From NCBI GenBank assembly GCA_017624835.1, contig JAGAMG010000011.1:62001-126000 (forward strand): a stretch of DNA of 64,000 bases, written 5' to 3'. The DNA comes from Lachnospiraceae bacterium. GTDB lineage: Bacteria > Bacillota > Clostridia > Lachnospirales > Lachnospiraceae. The position numbers and the translations under genes were made by a program. The notes beneath the pieces were generated by a model. The model saw only the letters and a list, made by a program, of their open reading frames with translations, was not told the origin of the DNA and did not search any database. Below are positions 8,811 to 44,923 of this stretch, piece by piece (position 1 is the first letter of the stretch; each line of letters opens with the position of its first letter).

Positions 8811-9572
8811 TTACTCTGCTTCTACAACCTCTTCGATATCCTCAGCTGCTTCTGCATCTACTGCAACATCCTCAGCTGCGTAAACAGCCTCACCCTGATT
8901 AGCTTCGATAACAGCGTCTGCCATCTTGGAAACGATTAACTTAACTGCTCTGATAGCATCATCATTACCGGGGATGATATAATCTAATTCTTCAGGATCA
9001 CAGTTGGTATCACCAATACCAATTAAGGTAATTCCAAGAGAATGAGCCTCCTGTACACAAATCTTCTCCTTCTTAGGATCTACAACGAAGATTGCATCAG
9101 GGATTCTGGTCATATTCTTGATACCGCCAAGGTTCTTCTCCAACTTATCCCATTCTTTCTTTAACTCGATAACTTCCTTCTTAGGCAATACATCGAAAGT
9201 TCCGTCTTCTGCCATGGTCTCGATAGCATGTAATCTATCAATACGGGACTGGATGGTCTTGAAGTTGGTAAGCATACCACCCAACCATCTCTCATTTACA
9301 TAGTACATACCGCAACGCTCTGCCTCAGTCTTAACTGCATCCTGCGCCTGCTTCTTGGTACCAACGAAAAGAATAGTACCGCCCTGTGCTGCGATTTCAG
9401 AAATTGCCTTGTATGCCTCATCAACTTTACCTACAGACTTCTGCAAGTCAATGATGTGGATACCATTTCTCTCAGTGAAGATGTAAGGAGCCATCTTAGG
9501 GTTCCATCTTCTGGTCTGATGTCCAAAATGAACACCTGCTTCAAGTAACTGTTTCATAGAAATAACGCTCAT
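8811..9572 (-). CDS. rpsB: 30S ribosomal protein S2
   Basis: 253 residues beginning [20 protein letters not shown], the hallmark S2 opening with the RRWNPKM motif after it. It has the conserved [13 protein letters not shown] and [12 protein letters not shown] segments and a GIPAV-like PDAIFVVDP block. The last 25 residues are an acidic tail ([16 protein letters not shown]) common in Clostridia. The start ATG has GGAGG seven bases upstream. A structured leader and a strong promoter precede it, so it is transcribed independently of the flagellar locus. Confidence 0.98.
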
Positions 9573-19939: not shown

Positions 19940-20809
19940 CTATAATCTTTGAATAATATGGGAAAAAAACGCTGCCATACCTCGTTTGGGCTGTTTTTCT
20001 ACCTCTTCCTTCTCCATCAGACGCATAGCAATTTTCTCATAAGCAAGACTTGCCTTACAGCCGGGATTTTGTAAAGATACCGGCATCTGTTGCATTACAG
20101 CCTTTGCCACCTGCGCATCCTGAGGAACAGAGCCCAAATAGGTCATAGGAACCTTTAAATAACGGGTTACTACCGCATTTAATTTTTCAAAGAGTACTTC
20201 TCCTTCTGCCTCTTTTTCCACTCTATTTGCAACCATTTTTACTTTTGTCATATCTTCTTTAAATCTGGGATGCCTGTACAACACCTTTAACAGGGAATAT
20301 GAATCCGTAATGGAGGTAGGCTCGGGAGTAGTAACTAAAAGTATTTCCCCACTGGCAACCAAAAACTCAAGTACTGCGTCCGCAATACCTGCTCCTGTAT
20401 CTACAATAATCACATCTGCAATGGAATCCAACTCTGAGAGATTTTGTATAATATAATCCAAATAATCCTTACTCAGATTGGACATACCTGCAATTCCGGA
20501 ACCACCGGAAATAAAACCAACATCCATTGGCCCCCAAGTAATAATTTCTTTTATATTTTTTCCCTGATAAATCAAATCACAAAGATTATGCTTGGGTACC
20601 GCTCCAAACATAATTTCAATATTTGCCAAACCAAAATCCGCATCAAGAATAATAACTCTTTTTCCCATCTTGCGAAAATGAATTGCCAAATTAATTGACA
20701 TATTTGATTTACCAACACCACCCTTACCACTCGTAACTGTTATTACCCGGGCAAGAGGACGATTTTGTTTATTTGCTTTTATAATTCTTAACTGTTCTGC
20801 CTGATCCAT
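19940..20809 (-). CDS. flhG: Flagellar number regulator FlhG (YlxH/MinD-like ATPase)
   Basis: 289 residues. Deviant Walker A is SGKGGVGKSN (residues 27-36), with the MinD-type switch motif VIIVDTGAGI and a C-terminal amphipathic tail (AAFFSHIIQRL) for membrane binding. FlhG controls flagellar number and placement, acting on FlhF and the switch protein. It lies 28 bp after the flhF reading frame. Because flhF is interrupted here, FlhG may lack its normal partner. Confidence 0.95.
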   Translation of the reverse strand: MDQAEQLRIIKANKQNRPLARVITVTSGKGGVGKSNMSINLAIHFRKMGKRVIILDADFGLANIEIMFGAVPKHNLCDLIYQGKNIKEIITWGPMDVGFISGGSGIAGMSNLSKDYLDYIIQNLSELDSIADVIIVDTGAGIADAVLEFLVASGEILLVTTPEPTSITDSYSLLKVLYRHPRFKEDMTKVKMVANRVEKEAEGEVLFEKLNAVVTRYLKVPMTYLGSVPQDAQVAKAVMQQMPVSLQNPGCKASLAYEKIAMRLMEKEEVEKQPKRGMAAFFSHIIQRL

Positions 20810-20837
20810 AATCTATTCTCCATTTGTTAAGGAACCG

Positions 20838-22067
20838 TTAAATCTTTCCTCCCAACAGTTGTTTAACAGTTTTCTGAGGATGAAACATCTCTATGTCATC
20901 CGGCACATTCTGTCCATATGCTGTATACGCAATATTAGTTCCCGTCCCCAATTTAACATTTAACAGATTTCCCAAACGATCTGTTTCATCCAATTTGGTA
21001 AAGATAAGCTGATAATCCACGATTTTCTGATAAGTCTCTGTTATCATAAGCAAATCAGGATATTTGGTGGTAGCACTAACTACCAGAAATACCTGATACT
21101 CTACTGTTCCCTTCAGAGAATCTAACAAATCCTTCATTTTTTGAAGCTGCTCATTATTCTAATGAGAATGTCCCGTTGTATCTACAAAAATATAATCATA
21201 CTCTGCAAAATCAGTAATTGCTCTTTCCAATTCATCAATAGTATAGATAACTCTAAAAGGTACTTCCAAAATGTTAGCATAAGTACGAAGCTGCTCTGCT
21301 GCTGCAATACGAAAGGTATCCGCTGTTAAGAGGGCAACCTTATTTTTCTCATCCATGGAAAAATTGCTGGCAAGCTTTGCAATAGTAGTGGTCTTTCCCA
21401 CTCCGGTAGGACCGATAAACAAAACAATCTTGGGTCCTTTCTCTGCCGGTACAATCCCTTCCGGCTTACCGAATTTTAATATCATTTTCTGATATACATT
21501 TGCCAAAATATAATCAATGGGCATATTGGCTTTTTTATTTTTGTCAATCTCTTCCAGCATCTGATTGGCATATTTTTCATCCACTTCATTATCCAGCATT
21601 ATATTATAAAGTAATCGCAAAAACTTATCCTGCTCGGAAAGCTCATCCGACTCTTCTGCTGCTTCTTCATTCCCATCCGCAGCCTCATGTGCTTCCTGTT
21701 TTGCCTTTTCAGCAGCAGCTTTCTCTTCTTCTGCCTTTCTCATTTGGCTTTCCAGCAAAACCTGAAGACTATCCAGCTTCTTTTCAAGACTTTCCGTATT
21801 AGCATTTTGAGCATCCGCATCTTCCCTCATTGGCGAAAGCTTTGGCTCTGCTACCAGTGTTCTTGCAGAAGACTCTTTGGGTACAATTCTTCCATGGTCT
21901 TCTTCCAACGCAACAGTCACTTCTATCTGTTTTGCGCTAAAAAGAGCTGATAAGCCCTTTTTCTTTAGCACTCTTACGTTCATGATCACACAGCCTTCCC
22001 CAAGCTCTTTCCTGGCTGCTGCAACCGCTTCCTCTTCTGTTTTTCCGATAAATTTCTTAATAATCAT
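20838..22067 (-). pseudogene. flhF: flhF, interrupted by one in-frame amber codon
   Basis: FlhF is an SRP-type GTPase that sets flagellar placement. The N-terminal domain (IIKKFIGKTEEEAVAAARKE), a charged linker, and G1 (GPTGVGKTT, about 219-227) through G3 (DTTGHSH, 296-302) are intact. The next codon, at 21159-21161, is TAG. The same frame then continues with NNEQLQKMKDLL, the G4 motif FTKLDE and the C-terminus, giving 409 residues if read through. The change is most simply CAG to TAG. No good internal restart follows: the next in-frame ATG, at 21137, has no ribosome site. The gene overlaps flhA by one base. It may be a true nonsense mutation, a sequencing error or read-through. Confidence 0.88.
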
Positions 22068-24106
22068 TACGCTGTCACCATCCCTACCGACTGTAATTCC
22101 ACGCTTGACTCAATCTCATTATAGGAAACAACAATTAAATCCTTATAATAATCCTCTGTTAAACGCTTAAAATACATTCTCACTATCGGCGAAGTTATAA
22201 TAATTGGAATTTTTCCAAGATTCTCAAGCTTTTTCACTTCATTTCCCACCGAATCCACAATTGCTCTGGCTCTGGCAGGGTCTAAATTTAAGAAAGCTCC
22301 CGTTTCAGTCTGTTTTACACTTGCCATAATCTCCTGCTCCACCTTTGGATCCAATGTTACCACACTGGTAGTCTCATGGGGCGGGAAATATTTGGTAGAT
22401 ATGGCTCGTTTCAAACTCTGTCTGACATATTCTGTTAAAATATCTGTATCCCTTGTGGTAGACGCATAATCTGCCAGAGTTTCCATAACCGTTAACAAAT
22501 CTCTTATGGAAATTCCTTCCCTTAACAGATTTTGTAATACCTTTTGGATTTCTCCCAATCCCAACAGCTTGGGTAATAATTCCTCCACCAAAGAGGGATG
22601 TGTTTCCTTAAGATTGTTAACCAGATTCTGTACATCCTGACGGGTCAACAGTTCTGCAATATGCTGTCTGATAATCTCAGTCAAATGGGTTGCAATAATA
22701 GAGGGCGGGTCAACCACTGTATACCCAAGGCTTTCCGCTCTTTCACGCTGTCCCTCTGTAATCCAGATTGCCGGTAAATGGAAGGACGGCTCAAAGGTAG
22801 GAATACCGGTGATTTCTTCCTCCACATAACCGGGATTCATTGCCATATAATGGTCAAAAAGGATTTCTCCCTCCGACACCTGAATTCCTTTAATTTTAAT
22901 GATGTACTGATTGGGATTAAGCTGAATATTGTCACGCAGACGAATAATAGGAACCACCGTACCAAGCTCCAATGCAATCTGCCTACGAATCATCACAACA
23001 CGATCCAGCAAATCTCCGCCCTGATTCACATCAGCAAGAGGAATAATACCATAGCCAAACTCTAATTCAATAGGATCCACCTGCAAAAGGCTGTTGACAT
23101 TTTCCGGCTGTCTGATTTCTTCTGCCGCCTGTTCATCCATATCCACCTCCTGCTCGATCTTAGAGGTTTCAATAGTACTTGCGATGGTTCGTCCTGCAAT
23201 AATAAACATCAGACCCAAGCCTACAAAAAGAATGGTATTTAAGGGGGTGCAAAATCCCAATGCTGCAAGCATTGCACCAACCAAATACAATGCCTTGGGT
23301 ACACCAAAAAGCTGTCCAACTAAGGCAGTACCAAAATCCGCATCCTTGCTACCCTTGGTTACCAAAATACCGGTGGACAAGGATATTAACAAAGAGGGAA
23401 TCTGGCTTACCAAACCATCACCAATGGTAAGAAGCGCATACTTATTTAATGCCTCTCCTACATCCATACCACCTCTGGTCATACCCATGATAATACCGCC
23501 AACGATATTTACAGCAGTAAGAAGCAAACCCATGGTGGCATCTCCCTTTACGTACTTAACCGCACCATCCATGGAGCCAAAGAAGCTTGCCTCTTCCTGA
23601 ATCTTTTCACGACGTTTTTTTGCCTCTGCATCGGTAATAGCTCCCGTATTCAAATCTGCATCAATTGCCATCTGTTTACCGGGCATAGCATCCAAGGTAA
23701 ATCTTGCAGATACTTCTGACACACGTTCGGAACCTTTATTGATTACCATAAACTGAACCATAATCAGAATAATAAATACAACCACACCGATAACAAGGTC
23801 GCCACCACCCACATATTCACCAAAAGTAGCAACCACATTACCTGCATATCCGTCACGCAGAATTAATCTTGTAGAGGATACATTCAACGCAATTCTGAAA
23901 ATAGTAGTAAACAAAAGCATGGTCGGAAAATAACTCATGTCCAATACTTCCTTACTAAACATGGTTCCAAACATAATTGTTATAGCAATAGCAATATTAA
24001 TTGCCAAAAAAACATCCAAAAGCCATGTGGGTATGGAAATAATCAGCATCAAAAAGGCAGCCATTATATATAAAGCCACGGCTAAATCCGCTTTTCTCAA
24101 CTTCAT
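22067..24106 (-). CDS. flhA: Flagellar type III export gate protein FlhA
   Basis: 679 residues. The first 330 form about eight membrane helices with the FHIPEP-type cytoplasmic loop between helices 4 and 5 (RFTLDAMPGKQMAIDADLNTG). The C-terminal cytoplasmic domain (about 350-679) docks chaperone-substrate complexes. FlhA forms the nonameric export ring and uses the proton motive force. It lies 46 bp after flhB and overlaps flhF by one base (TAATG). Confidence 0.98.
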   Translation of the reverse strand: MKLRKADLAVALYIMAAFLMLIISIPTWLLDVFLAINIAIAITIMFGTMFSKEVLDMSYFPTMLLFTTIFRIALNVSSTRLILRDGYAGNVVATFGEYVGGGDLVIGVVVFIILIMVQFMVINKGSERVSEVSARFTLDAMPGKQMAIDADLNTGAITDAEAKKRREKIQEEASFFGSMDGAVKYVKGDATMGLLLTAVNIVGGIIMGMTRGGMDVGEALNKYALLTIGDGLVSQIPSLLISLSTGILVTKGSKDADFGTALVGQLFGVPKALYLVGAMLAALGFCTPLNTILFVGLGLMFIIAGRTIASTIETSKIEQEVDMDEQAAEEIRQPENVNSLLQVDPIELEFGYGIIPLADVNQGGDLLDRVVMIRRQIALELGTVVPIIRLRDNIQLNPNQYIIKIKGIQVSEGEILFDHYMAMNPGYVEEEITGIPTFEPSFHLPAIWITEGQRERAESLGYTVVDPPSIIATHLTEIIRQHIAELLTRQDVQNLVNNLKETHPSLVEELLPKLLGLGEIQKVLQNLLREGISIRDLLTVMETLADYASTTRDTDILTEYVRQSLKRAISTKYFPPHETTSVVTLDPKVEQEIMASVKQTETGAFLNLDPARARAIVDSVGNEVKKLENLGKIPIIITSPIVRMYFKRLTEDYYKDLIVVSYNEIESSVELQSVGMVTA

Positions 24107-27231: not shown

Positions 27232-27597
27232 TCAGCTTTCTTTACTGGAATCTTTTTTTAAAGTGCGTTCTAAAAAAAACTTAAATCCTAAGTTTTCCTG
27301 TAAACAACGCCTGTCCCTAAGCTGCTCCATCGGCACTTCACCCAACATGGTCACTGTATCCTTGCAATTAGCAATAACCATATAGGTTTCTCCTACTCGC
27401 ACTATCTGAATATATTTATTATTTGATATGCGAGTAGTTTCTAATACCTCTATATTACAGTTAGCACTTTGCTGCTTCTGATAACCTGCAAGCCACTTTG
27501 TAACAACCGCAGTCACTCCCAACACCAGAACAAATACCACTAAAACAGTAATTAATTGTGCATAACTGTCAACTTTTCCTGTCAAAAGAATGGTCAT
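27232..27597 (-). CDS. fliO: Flagellar assembly protein FliO/FliZ
   Basis: 121 residues. A single N-terminal membrane helix (LITVLVVFVLVLGVTAVVT) is followed by a small cytoplasmic beta domain (IEVLETTRISNNKYIQIVRVGE) and a basic tail. It helps assemble the FliP ring. The start codon overlaps the cheY stop (TAATG). B. subtilis calls the equivalent gene fliZ (fliO). Confidence 0.9.
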   Translation of the reverse strand: MTILLTGKVDSYAQLITVLVVFVLVLGVTAVVTKWLAGYQKQQSANCNIEVLETTRISNNKYIQIVRVGETYMVIANCKDTVTMLGEVPMEQLRDRRCLQENLGFKFFLERTLKKDSSKES

Positions 27598-32811: not shown

Positions 32812-34566
32812 TTAACGTTTCAGGTTGGTTAACTCTTCAAGCATGGTATCTGATACAGTAATAATTCTACTATTTGCCTGGAATCCACGCTGTGTAGTAA
32901 TCATTTCGGTGAACTCTGCAGACAAATCTACATTACTCATCTCCAACTGTCCGGTGGACATATAACCACCATTAGCAGTAATGTCCACACCAATTCCGTC
33001 AAACTCACCGGAGTTTAAGGTTGCAGAATAAAGGTTATCACCCTGCTTTTCCAAACCTGCTGCATTTGCAAAGGATGCTGATGCAATCTGACCTAAAAGC
33101 TTGGTCATACCATTATCATAGCTTGCATAAATCATACCATTATTCTGAACGGACACACCAATCATATCACCCAGACGACGGCCTGAACCAATACCATCTG
33201 CATCACCACTGGTAGCACCAATGGTAGAAGTTCCCTTATTATCAAAACCGGAACATGTTGAAAAATCAATCTCAATATTGCTGAAATTACCGGATAACAG
33301 GGACAAATTCAAATTAGCAGTGGTACTGGTAGGATCATTGGTTCCAATTCCATTAAAGTAACCATTGTTAGGGTTAAAGTAAATGGTACTACCACTGTAC
33401 TCTCTACCACAGGCAGTAAATCTTTCATTGTTTACGCCGCCACTTGCAAGAGAAGGGAATACATCATTGGTCTGATCCAGTACACCATTATTATTTGCAT
33501 CCGTAGTTTCAAAGGTCGGAGAAGCACCTGCCAATGCTTCCAAAGCTGCCTCTACAGACATGGTATCACCTGCTGTAACATTACTTGCAATATGTAAGCT
33601 TAAAAATTCATCGGTAGAACCTTCGAAACCATATGCTGCTGCAATAGCATCCAATCCCTTTTGCTTATCCTCCGGTGTTGTACTAGCATTAAAAATGGTT
33701 GCTACATTTGCCACTTCATTACCGGTGGTTTTTTCACTTAAGATTTTACCTGTTGCATCCCAAACATAGGTAGCACTGTTAAATACAACTTCTCTCTCCT
33801 GTTCCTGATAAGTAGGAGTACCGAATAAATCCACATCATCGGGAAGCTCCAGTTCATTACCTGCGGAATCAAGAATACTTGATAACTCCACACTGTAAGT
33901 ATTGGGGTCATCGGACTGCATAAAGGTAAACTTAGCAGTATAGCTGTAACCCAATGCATCATAGAAGTTTAAGTTAATGGACTTACCGCTTGCACTGGTA
34001 ACATCGGAATCATTCTGATCCAGGATACCTGCAATATAAGCCTTGGAGGTTGCCTCCGGAGGATAGGTCATATTTGCTTCACTCATAATACGAAGGGCAC
34101 TAACGGTATCCTGCTTGATATCCATAGTCTCTTCATCCACCTGCCAGCCCATTACATTATAACCGGTACTGGTCATAGCAAGATTACCGGCTCCATCTAC
34201 ATAGAAAGAACCGTCTCTGGTAAAGAAATTCTCTCTACCATTATTTACAACGAAGAAGTTCTCTCCTGTAATCATGATATCGAAAGGATTTCCTGTGGAC
34301 TGCGCGGAACCCTGTCCTGTAATATTAATATTGATTGCGCCACCCTTAACACCAAGACCAATCTGTCTTGCGTTTACACCACCGGTACCGGTGGTAGCGT
34401 TAGGACCACTAGCCTTCTGAGTGGTCTGGCTCATTAATTCACTAAAGGTCATAGAGCTTGATTTGAATGCTACGGTATTAACGTTTGCAATATTATTACC
34501 GATTACATCCATTCTTGTCTGGTGTGTCTTTAAACCTGCCACACCAGAATACAATGATCTCATCAT
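32812..34566 (-). CDS. flgE: Flagellar hook protein FlgE
   Basis: 584 residues. The N-terminal rod/hook motif (MRSLYSGVAGLKTHQTRMDV, then GNNIANVNTVAFK) and the C-terminal heptad region (LEMSNVDLSAEFTEMITTQRGFQANSRII) are conserved. The middle is long and variable, with a FlgE-type LNFYDALGYSYTAKFTF segment. It is exported by the type III apparatus and polymerises into the hook. It is longer than B. subtilis FlgE because of the variable surface region. GGAGG lies ten bases before the ATG. Confidence 0.97.
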   Translation of the reverse strand: MMRSLYSGVAGLKTHQTRMDVIGNNIANVNTVAFKSSSMTFSELMSQTTQKASGPNATTGTGGVNARQIGLGVKGGAININITGQGSAQSTGNPFDIMITGENFFVVNNGRENFFTRDGSFYVDGAGNLAMTSTGYNVMGWQVDEETMDIKQDTVSALRIMSEANMTYPPEATSKAYIAGILDQNDSDVTSASGKSINLNFYDALGYSYTAKFTFMQSDDPNTYSVELSSILDSAGNELELPDDVDLFGTPTYQEQEREVVFNSATYVWDATGKILSEKTTGNEVANVATIFNASTTPEDKQKGLDAIAAAYGFEGSTDEFLSLHIASNVTAGDTMSVEAALEALAGASPTFETTDANNNGVLDQTNDVFPSLASGGVNNERFTACGREYSGSTIYFNPNNGYFNGIGTNDPTSTTANLNLSLLSGNFSNIEIDFSTCSGFDNKGTSTIGATSGDADGIGSGRRLGDMIGVSVQNNGMIYASYDNGMTKLLGQIASASFANAAGLEKQGDNLYSATLNSGEFDGIGVDITANGGYMSTGQLEMSNVDLSAEFTEMITTQRGFQANSRIITVSDTMLEELTNLKR

Positions 34567-40065: not shown

Positions 40066-40911
40066 TTATTTTTCATAAGACAATAATTTTAATTTTTGCC
40101 TTAATTCCACAAGCTGAGTTCCCAAACCACAATCAAAAATACCACCCTCTGTTTCTATCAGGCATTCATTTGCGGCAAGTGTCACATCTTCCACAATTTC
40201 TACTGTACTGTTAGGGGAAATAGCCCCTTCCATAACCTCTGCTTTATGTTCACTGACATAGGAGAAATCTTCTTTTGATACATGAACCAAAAAGTCACGA
40301 TTTCCTTCCGTTTTACGCATGGTAGATGCAATCAAATGACACAGAATTTCCTTTTGCGTCTGAAGCTCCACTCCAAAAATGTGCTCATAAATACCGGTTA
40401 TGGTATCCACAAATTGGGGTTCTAACTCATCCAATAATTGCTGGTATTCTCTTTCCAACAATCTATTCTTCTCAGCATATTCTGCTTCCAGTCTGGCAGC
40501 TTCCTTTCTGGTCTGTTCCATACCTTCTGCATATCCCTGCTGTCTGGCCTGTTCTAACACCTGAGTTTTTTCCTGTTCTGCTGAAGAAGCTGCAAGCTGC
40601 TTGATTTCCTCTGCTTGGGCATTGGCATTGGCAATAATTTCCTCCGCCTCCAGCCTTACCTGTTCCAGGTAGTTTTCTGCATCTGCACCGGATTTGATTA
40701 CATTGCTATGTATACCATCTTCGTCATTAAGTAACCCATCCGTTTCAACAACCTCTGCTGTAAGTCCGGAAACAAATCCATCTCCCGTAGACTGCTGATT
40801 CAGAATCCCCAATGCCTCCAACCGCTTTAACATTAATTCATTTACATTAATGACTCTTGCATCATCCTGCGTTAAATTCGTATAACCACTTTTTAACAGA
40901 TTACTAGACAA
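40066..40911 (-). CDS. fliH: Flagellar export regulator FliH
   Basis: 281 residues. The N-terminus (SSNLLKSGYTN, VINVNELMLKRLE) is followed by a long Ala/Glu/Gln-rich helix (about 90-160) and the C-terminal FliH/V-ATPase E-like domain. It inhibits and positions FliI. I use the TTG at 40911: GGAGGTGA lies eight bases upstream, whereas the GTG at 40950 lies inside fliG without a ribosome site. The start codon overlaps the fliG stop. Confidence 0.88.
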   Translation of the reverse strand: MSSNLLKSGYTNLTQDDARVINVNELMLKRLEALGILNQQSTGDGFVSGLTAEVVETDGLLNDEDGIHSNVIKSGADAENYLEQVRLEAEEIIANANAQAEEIKQLAASSAEQEKTQVLEQARQQGYAEGMEQTRKEAARLEAEYAEKNRLLEREYQQLLDELEPQFVDTITGIYEHIFGVELQTQKEILCHLIASTMRKTEGNRDFLVHVSKEDFSYVSEHKAEVMEGAISPNSTVEIVEDVTLAANECLIETEGGIFDCGLGTQLVELRQKLKLLSYEK

Positions 40912-41923
40912 TGATTTCGTCACCTCCACCTCTGGAAATAACAATTTCACCGGAATCCTCCAGCTTACGGATAATATTTACAATCTTCTGCTGTGCTTCT
41001 TCCACGTCCTTCATACGAACAGGACCCATGAATTCCATATCTTCCTTAATCATAACAGCAAGACGCTTGGACATGTTATTGAAAATCGCTGTCTGTACCT
41101 GTTCATTTGCACCCTTAAGTGCAATTGCAAGGTCATTATTATCCACATCACGAAGCACTCTCTGAATCGCTCTGTCATCCAACAAGAGAATATCTTCAAA
41201 TACGAACATCTTCTTACGGATTTCATCAGCAAGCTCGGGCTCTTCGATTTCCAAGGTTTCCATAATATGCTTCTCTGTACCACGGTCTACGGTATTCAAA
41301 ATTTCTACAACCGCATCCACACCACCAATAATGGTGTAGTCCTGATTTACCAGACTTGCTAACTTGGATTCCAACACTTTTTCCACTTCCTTGATTACAT
41401 CCGGGCTGGTTCTGTCCATTACCGCAATACGTCTTGCTACCTCAGCCTGTCTGTCAGGAGGCAATGCAGAAATAATCATAGCTGCCTGTCCCGAAGAGAG
41501 ATAGGACAAAATCAAAGCAATGGTCTGAGGATGTTCGTCCTGAATAAAATTTATCAACTGAGAAGCATCCGTCTTACGCACAAACTCGAAAGGCTTTACC
41601 TGCAGTGATGCTGTCAGCTTGCCGATAACATCCATTGCCTTCTCGGAGCCCAATGCCTTTTCCAAAAGTTCCTTTGCATAGGTAATACCGCCTTCTGCAA
41701 TATACTGCTGTGCAAGACACACTTCATAAAATTCATTAATAACTTCTTCTTTCACCTGAGGAGTAACACTTCTGGTGTTTGCAATTTCCAAGGTGAGTTC
41801 TTCTATTTCTTCTTCTTTTAAATGCTTAAAGATACCTGCGGAACGTTCGGGTCCCAGAGAAATCAACAAAATTGCTGCTTTCTGAAGTCCCGATATACCG
41901 TTTTCTCTTGCTGCTCTAGCCAT
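40904..41923 (-). CDS. fliG: Flagellar motor switch protein FliG
   Basis: 339 residues in three domains. The N-terminal region (LQKAAILLISLGPERSAGIFKHL) binds FliF. The middle carries the EHPQTIALILSYL motif. The C-terminal torque helix has MKDVEEAQQKIVNIIRKLEDSGEI, and the charged torque residues lie in DDRAIQRVLRDVDNNDLAIALKG. It starts 15 bp after fliF. Length and motifs are normal. Confidence 0.98.
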   Translation of the reverse strand: MARAARENGISGLQKAAILLISLGPERSAGIFKHLKEEEIEELTLEIANTRSVTPQVKEEVINEFYEVCLAQQYIAEGGITYAKELLEKALGSEKAMDVIGKLTASLQVKPFEFVRKTDASQLINFIQDEHPQTIALILSYLSSGQAAMIISALPPDRQAEVARRIAVMDRTSPDVIKEVEKVLESKLASLVNQDYTIIGGVDAVVEILNTVDRGTEKHIMETLEIEEPELADEIRKKMFVFEDILLLDDRAIQRVLRDVDNNDLAIALKGANEQVQTAIFNNMSKRLAVMIKEDMEFMGPVRMKDVEEAQQKIVNIIRKLEDSGEIVISRGGGDEIIV

Positions 41924-44475: not shown

Positions 44476-44865
44476 TTACTTTATAACAGCCTTAAGATTG
44501 GCAAATTCCTGTCTGATTCCAGCCAATAACCCTTGATATTTCAGCTGATTTTCGGCAAGATATACATTTTCATTTTCAATATCCACATTATTACCATCCA
44601 GGCGGTAAGAATAATTGGCATAATCTGTATAGGGCTTCCCTTCCAAACGTCTGGAACTTGCAGCCGCAACCTTGTCATCCATGGTTACATATCGGTTATA
44701 GCCAAGAGCCCTTTTCAATTCTGACTCAAATGCCACATCCTGTCTTTTGTAACCCGGAGTAGCAACATTTGCAATATTGTTGGAAATCGCTTCATTGCGT
44801 AACCAGCTTGCATCAGCTGCCTTGTCCAACACGTTTATGTAATCAAATGCATTCGTATTAATCAT
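44476..44865 (-). CDS. flgB: Flagellar proximal rod protein FlgB, first gene of the fla/che locus
   Basis: 129 residues. The rod motif (LRNEAISNNIANVATPGYKRQDVAFE) and NVDIENENVYLAENQLKYQGL are conserved. The ATG at 44865 is chosen because GGGAG lies seven bases upstream; a longer in-frame start at 44910 lies in the promoter region. A sigma-A-like promoter precedes it, so the main flagellar transcript probably begins here. Confidence 0.95.
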   Translation of the reverse strand: MINTNAFDYINVLDKAADASWLRNEAISNNIANVATPGYKRQDVAFESELKRALGYNRYVTMDDKVAAASSRRLEGKPYTDYANYSYRLDGNNVDIENENVYLAENQLKYQGLLAGIRQEFANLKAVIK

Positions 44866-44923
44866 AGAATAACTCCCTTCATCCATATGCATAAGACGGG
44901 GTACACCCATCCCACTCTATTCT

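Follow-up and report, generated by a model that had tools for sequence, protein, structure and literature searches.

The gene for the flagellar protein FlhF, in the window analysed here (a stretch of 64,000 nucleotides from the genome of a Lachnospiraceae bacterium), is interrupted by one in-frame stop codon. The whole frame lies on the minus strand at 20838-22067, and its 1230 bases read as 302 residues, a TAG as codon 303, a further 106 residues, and a terminal stop. The frame translation and the ORF list both place the TAG at 21159-21161 on the minus strand, and translation confirms an earlier claim that the frame is open on both sides of this lone codon. The 5' piece (21159..22067, minus strand, stop included) codes for 302 residues that alone exceed the cut-off of the NCBIfam FlhF model TIGR03499 (216.8 versus 174.15 bits) and end in DTTGHSH. 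The 3' piece (20838..21158, minus strand) consists of 106 open codons followed by a normal stop. Its product starts with NNEQLQKMKDLL and contains FTKLDE, and the closest solved structure is the FlhF of PDB 2px0 (5.2e-14). These piece ends are the ones given in the preliminary description of this DNA. A second copy of FlhF was not found in the genome at a threshold of 1e-30.

The stop falls inside the GTPase domain. The SRP54 GTPase domain PF00448 has 196 positions, of which the 5' piece matches 1-96 and the 3' piece 99-196 (55.4 bits), with almost none missing. A frameshift or longer damage in flhF was considered and is ruled out because the pieces abut within a single domain, at its positions 96 and 99. 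The 5' piece contains the B domain, a linker, the N domain, and, of the G domain, the half that bears G1-G3, and the 3' piece carries G4 (TKLDE) and the G5 region (YGQNVP); we take these motif positions from general knowledge of SRP GTPases. Since the TAG comes after G3 and both G4 and G5 lie past it, a continuous G1-G5 domain is absent from the product, and the division of PF00448 bears out the view that the truncated protein lacks the last two motifs.

One could consider that the two pieces are made separately, by a restart of translation past the stop, and form a working split GTPase. There is an in-frame ATG at 21135-21137, the eighth codon past the TAG, that could serve as the start. However, inspection by eye revealed no strong ribosome site at this ATG, as had been noted earlier; the break passes through the G-domain core; and a stop inside FlhF is seen in no other genome of the genus. 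An enzyme assembled from two halves in this way is highly improbable.

The neighbourhood of flhF is that of an ordinary flagellar operon. The gene sits between flhA, identified by profile, and a gene in the flhG position, recognised by its position and by a MinD-type profile. On the same strand, flhA (22067..24106) is intact and full length (TIGR01398, 827.5 bits versus a cut-off of 772.1) and overlaps the start of flhF by one base. The MinD/ParA-like ATPase gene (19940..20809, minus strand) is intact as well and begins 28 bases after flhF; MinD-type profiles match it below their cut-offs, and it is presumably flhG, a name that we give by position. The gene order around flhF is kept in the nearest relative (genome G030), in which the ORF at the flhG position is 89% identical to the one in the window and 98% covered. 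Between these nearest relatives (contig C19 of G030 versus window 19940-24106), the identity of FlhF is 64%, compared to 92% for FlhA and 89% for the flhG-position protein. Around flhF, there are 22 promoter-like matches (14.6 expected) and 3 terminator-like sites (3.6 expected), with none of the latter within 21100-21200; one weak promoter-like match (9/12) overlaps the TAG.

The other flagellar genes had been described as intact, and for those that were compared, this is the case: of 20 ORFs for flagellar and chemotaxis proteins, most agree with their profiles, and one flagellin gene is found, free of stops. The statement is limited by the profiles for three genes. FliR is slightly below its cut-off (165.5 versus 168.6), a hook-type protein at 32812-34566 passes a subfamily model only, and a 144-residue ORF at 44476-44910 has no Pfam match at 1e-8; the relative's ORF for the last of these is fully covered at 84% identity.

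TAG is an ordinary terminator in this genome. ORFs of 100 or more amino acids were picked mechanically and without overlap in 454 kb, made up of the window and 20 further stretches (15.5% of the assembly); TAG terminates 85 of these 361 ORFs, a count that includes the flhF 5' piece and perhaps some ORFs that are not genes. In the window itself, the figure is 16 of 55 ORFs chosen in the same manner, again with the 5' piece counted. The fliG ORF (40904-41923), for example, does end in TAG, as the preliminary description had it. Release factor 1 is encoded without interruption and scores 521.3 bits versus a cut-off of 423.25.

The machinery for an alternative reading was looked for as well. In the genome (84.81% complete), the best match to the pyrrolysine enzyme PylS reaches 22 bits versus a cut-off of 178.15; the E-value of this search is loose, with all 14 control genomes giving a match and one of them exceeding the cut-off. 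The anticodons of the 30 tRNAs found do not include CUA; this set is incomplete and lacks tRNAs for Ala, Asp, Ile, Phe, and Tyr. With TAG a common terminator, release factor 1 intact, PylS below its cut-off, and no CUA among the tRNAs found, general recoding and pyrrolysine were dropped as explanations. Recoding of TAG is not supported, which was also the earlier view, and the genome search for a suppressor tRNA or pyl genes, suggested in the preliminary description, came out negative within these bounds.

A narrower possibility is that the UAG at codon 303 is read through, by a suppressor tRNA, by pyrrolysine, or in a leaky context, yielding a certain amount of full-length FlhF as a form of level control. 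All 106 downstream codons are open, and G4 and the GQ of G5 are kept; a suppressor could be missed in the incomplete tRNA set; and the 100 bases past the stop fold with a z of -2.48 as a single sequence. Yet in the comparison with relatives, the z is -2.49 here and has a mean of -1.10 for the same stretch in 88 relatives, and 12 of these, which have no stop, fold as well or better, so the suggestive RNA structure was dropped. The PylS score, the anticodons, the intact release factor, and the ordinary use of TAG described above also argue against read-through, as does the absence of the stop from every relative. The programmed read-through offered earlier as one possibility thus finds no support, and read-through of any kind is very unlikely. 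A more elaborate version, in which a leaky UAG at codon 303 sets how much functional FlhF is present relative to a surplus of truncated protein still able to recruit basal-body parts, thereby changing flagellar number in the lineage, deserves hardly any weight.

The genus offers a ready comparison. The query was 24 aligned FlhF proteins, run against a set of 138 genomes at a threshold of 1e-30, and 109 of the genomes gave a match. A stop within the match occurs in one of the 109, the present genome, and in none of the other 108; four of these 108 matches span part of the model, and one of the four (G020) lies entirely past the stop column. We take the interruption to be more than a chance feature. 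The stop is present in the assembly and private to this genome among the FlhF matches searched in the genus. An alignment was made of 88 of the 108 other matches. One of the 89 sequences fetched (L151, from genome G007) was omitted by a frame filter and is listed as stop-free in the genus search, and 19 further matches, including those of G112 and G135, are outside the alignment. This comparison with close relatives, which had been proposed at the outset, finds a sense codon at the stop column in all 88 aligned sequences: Gln in 70, Lys in 14, Arg in 3, and His in 1. The residue replaced is most likely Gln, as had been supposed. The contig search for flhF relatives used the 5' piece alone as its query. 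Copies of flhF from the same species were found neither in viral contigs, by exact pattern, nor in plasmids; neither is a likely location. The nearest flhA in the genus, that of G030, is 80% identical at the DNA level, which leaves no second genome of the species in this set.

The presence of flagellar genes varies across the genus. Among genomes with a completeness of 90% or more and no more than 5% contamination, FlhF is found in 51 of 66 and flhA likewise in 51 of 66; the listed rows for the two genes agree, and flagellar genes seem to go missing as a set. In about one-fifth of the genus, FlhF gave no match at 1e-30 (29 of 138 genomes, and 15 of the 66 of good quality); flhA is likewise absent from 15 of those 66. 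This suggests repeated wholesale loss of flagella in the genus.

A stop seen once, in one genome, could also be a product of sequencing. On this view, the TAG arose through miscalling of a base or faulty assembly, or it comes from a minority strain whose variant entered the consensus, and flhF is intact in the population. The assembly is a draft of 55 contigs and 2.93 Mb, 84.81% complete; the event concerns a single codon in an otherwise conserved, syntenic gene; and the stop is in no other genome of the genus, all of which count in favour of an error. The same 454 kb was scanned for interrupted genes using coding bias, a candidate being an in-frame stop flanked to either side by 40 or more open codons. 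Six candidates were obtained, flhF among them. Three outside the window were ordinary gene ends when read by eye, and the two others in the window, judged from the ORF table and profiles, are ordinary gene boundaries too, one where cheA ends ahead of the following ORF and the other between fliM and fliY. This leaves flhF as the sole gene found to be split by an in-frame stop, in a scan that is blind to frameshifts.

The nearest relative gives a second view of the same question. Its contig has 86 ORFs, of which 49 match the window and 45 are collinear with it from 7.7 to 54 kb; the four excluded comprise three out of gene order (3.8-7.1 kb) and one at the window edge. Coverage is at least 95% for 44 of the 45 collinear ORFs and 62% for the remaining one. 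Three matches hold a stop, namely flhF, one that starts upstream of the ORF at 8811-9572, and one that overruns the ORF at 27232-27597; by coordinates, flhF has the sole interior stop among the 45. The assembly is not obviously noisy, because no other split gene was seen in 454 kb.

Conservation past the stop was compared with that before it. In the 3' piece, 3 of the 37 columns conserved at 95% or more are altered, and 3 of 88 relatives alter as many. At a threshold of 90%, 3 of 41 columns are altered and 11 of 88 relatives have as many; at 98%, the numbers are 1 of 27 columns and 12 of 88 relatives. In the 5' piece, 1 of 59 columns is altered at the 95% threshold, and 51 of 88 relatives have at least as many. 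The mean identity of the 3' piece is 0.632 here versus 0.658 in the others (18 of 88 are no higher), and that of the 5' piece is 0.740 versus 0.732. Residues 382-383 of FlhF (window 20919-20924) are T-A, compared to V-T in nearly all relatives. Residue 383, which precedes the GQ of the G5 region by two residues and is one of the three columns altered at 95%, is Ala here and Thr in all 88.

These figures hint at a mild relaxation of constraint on the 3' piece at most, and one that depends on the threshold. Relaxed selection, raised in the preliminary description, is weakly supported: 3 of 88 relatives are as divergent at 95%, 11 of 88 at 90%, and 12 of 88 at 98%. The slight, weak excess of changes at conserved columns would not be explained by a single base error and counts to that extent against an erroneous base. 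Taken as a whole, the conservation data do not tell a real flhF mutation from an error, and an assembly or consensus error would appear identical to one. We regard an error or a minority variant as the leading alternative, though a rather unlikely one. The stop is probably a recent nonsense substitution, limited to the species or the strain. One finding against a recent substitution is that an intact flhA beside a broken flhF is unusual, given the equal presence of the two genes among the good-quality genomes; this is compatible with an error too.

If the nonsense substitution is real, its consequences can be outlined. Because release factor 1 is intact and TAG is used in the ordinary way, translation would end at residue 302. 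The product would comprise the B domain, the N domain, and half of the G domain, without G4 and G5, and judging from the protein family, it would neither bind GTP nor form the GTP-dependent dimer. In a study of Pseudomonas aeruginosa, flagella were still made when FlhF lacked its G domain, but in about 65% of cells the flagellum was misplaced to a non-polar site; the B and N domains, in contrast, were required for flagellar assembly (PMC12713375). By analogy, control over the location of flagella, and perhaps over their number, would be lost. A half domain that is unstable may lead to total loss of FlhF and a cell equivalent to an FlhF null, and a stable one to flagella in the wrong places or numbers. 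Ribosomes leaving about 320 bases before the end of flhF could also lower the expression of the gene in the flhG position. An altered number or placement of flagella in the present species is inferred from such parallels. FlhF of B. cereus is described as having a role in the number and position of flagella and in swarming (PMC5069341), and a review has FlhF and FlhG acting in polar and peritrichous species, with the spatial cues and partners in B. subtilis unclear (PMC12826062).

A real stop would provide a natural FlhF truncation within an otherwise open flagellar operon and a natural test of flagellar assembly without a GTP-binding FlhF in this Lachnospiraceae bacterium. If it is not real, it amounts to a single position of a draft assembly that needs verification. 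Among the matches listed in the literature search, the titles and abstract openings included no comparable case of a premature stop or nonsense mutation in flhF, or of UAG or pyrrolysine in this gene, and the search found no paper on Lachnospiraceae flagellar genes with loss of motility.

The known system closest to the locus is FlhF itself (TIGR03499; PDB 2px0), with which it shares the domain order, the motifs, the place between flhA and the flhG-position gene, and the single copy; it differs in the stop that parts G1-G3 from G4 and G5 in the G domain. Natural loss-of-function flagellar mutations, such as those reported in long-cultured Vibrio cholerae (PMC10654082), have in common with it disabling changes in motility genes, whereas here there is one Lachnospiraceae draft genome, known from its sequence alone. 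With UAG recoding, by pyrrolysine or amber suppression, it shares a UAG in frame with open and conserved codons past it, but PylS is below its cut-off, no CUA tRNA is among the 30 found, release factor 1 is present, and TAG is a common terminator. In all likelihood, the flhF stop reflects a recent mutation of an ordinary kind, or else a slip in the assembly, rather than a new reading of the code.
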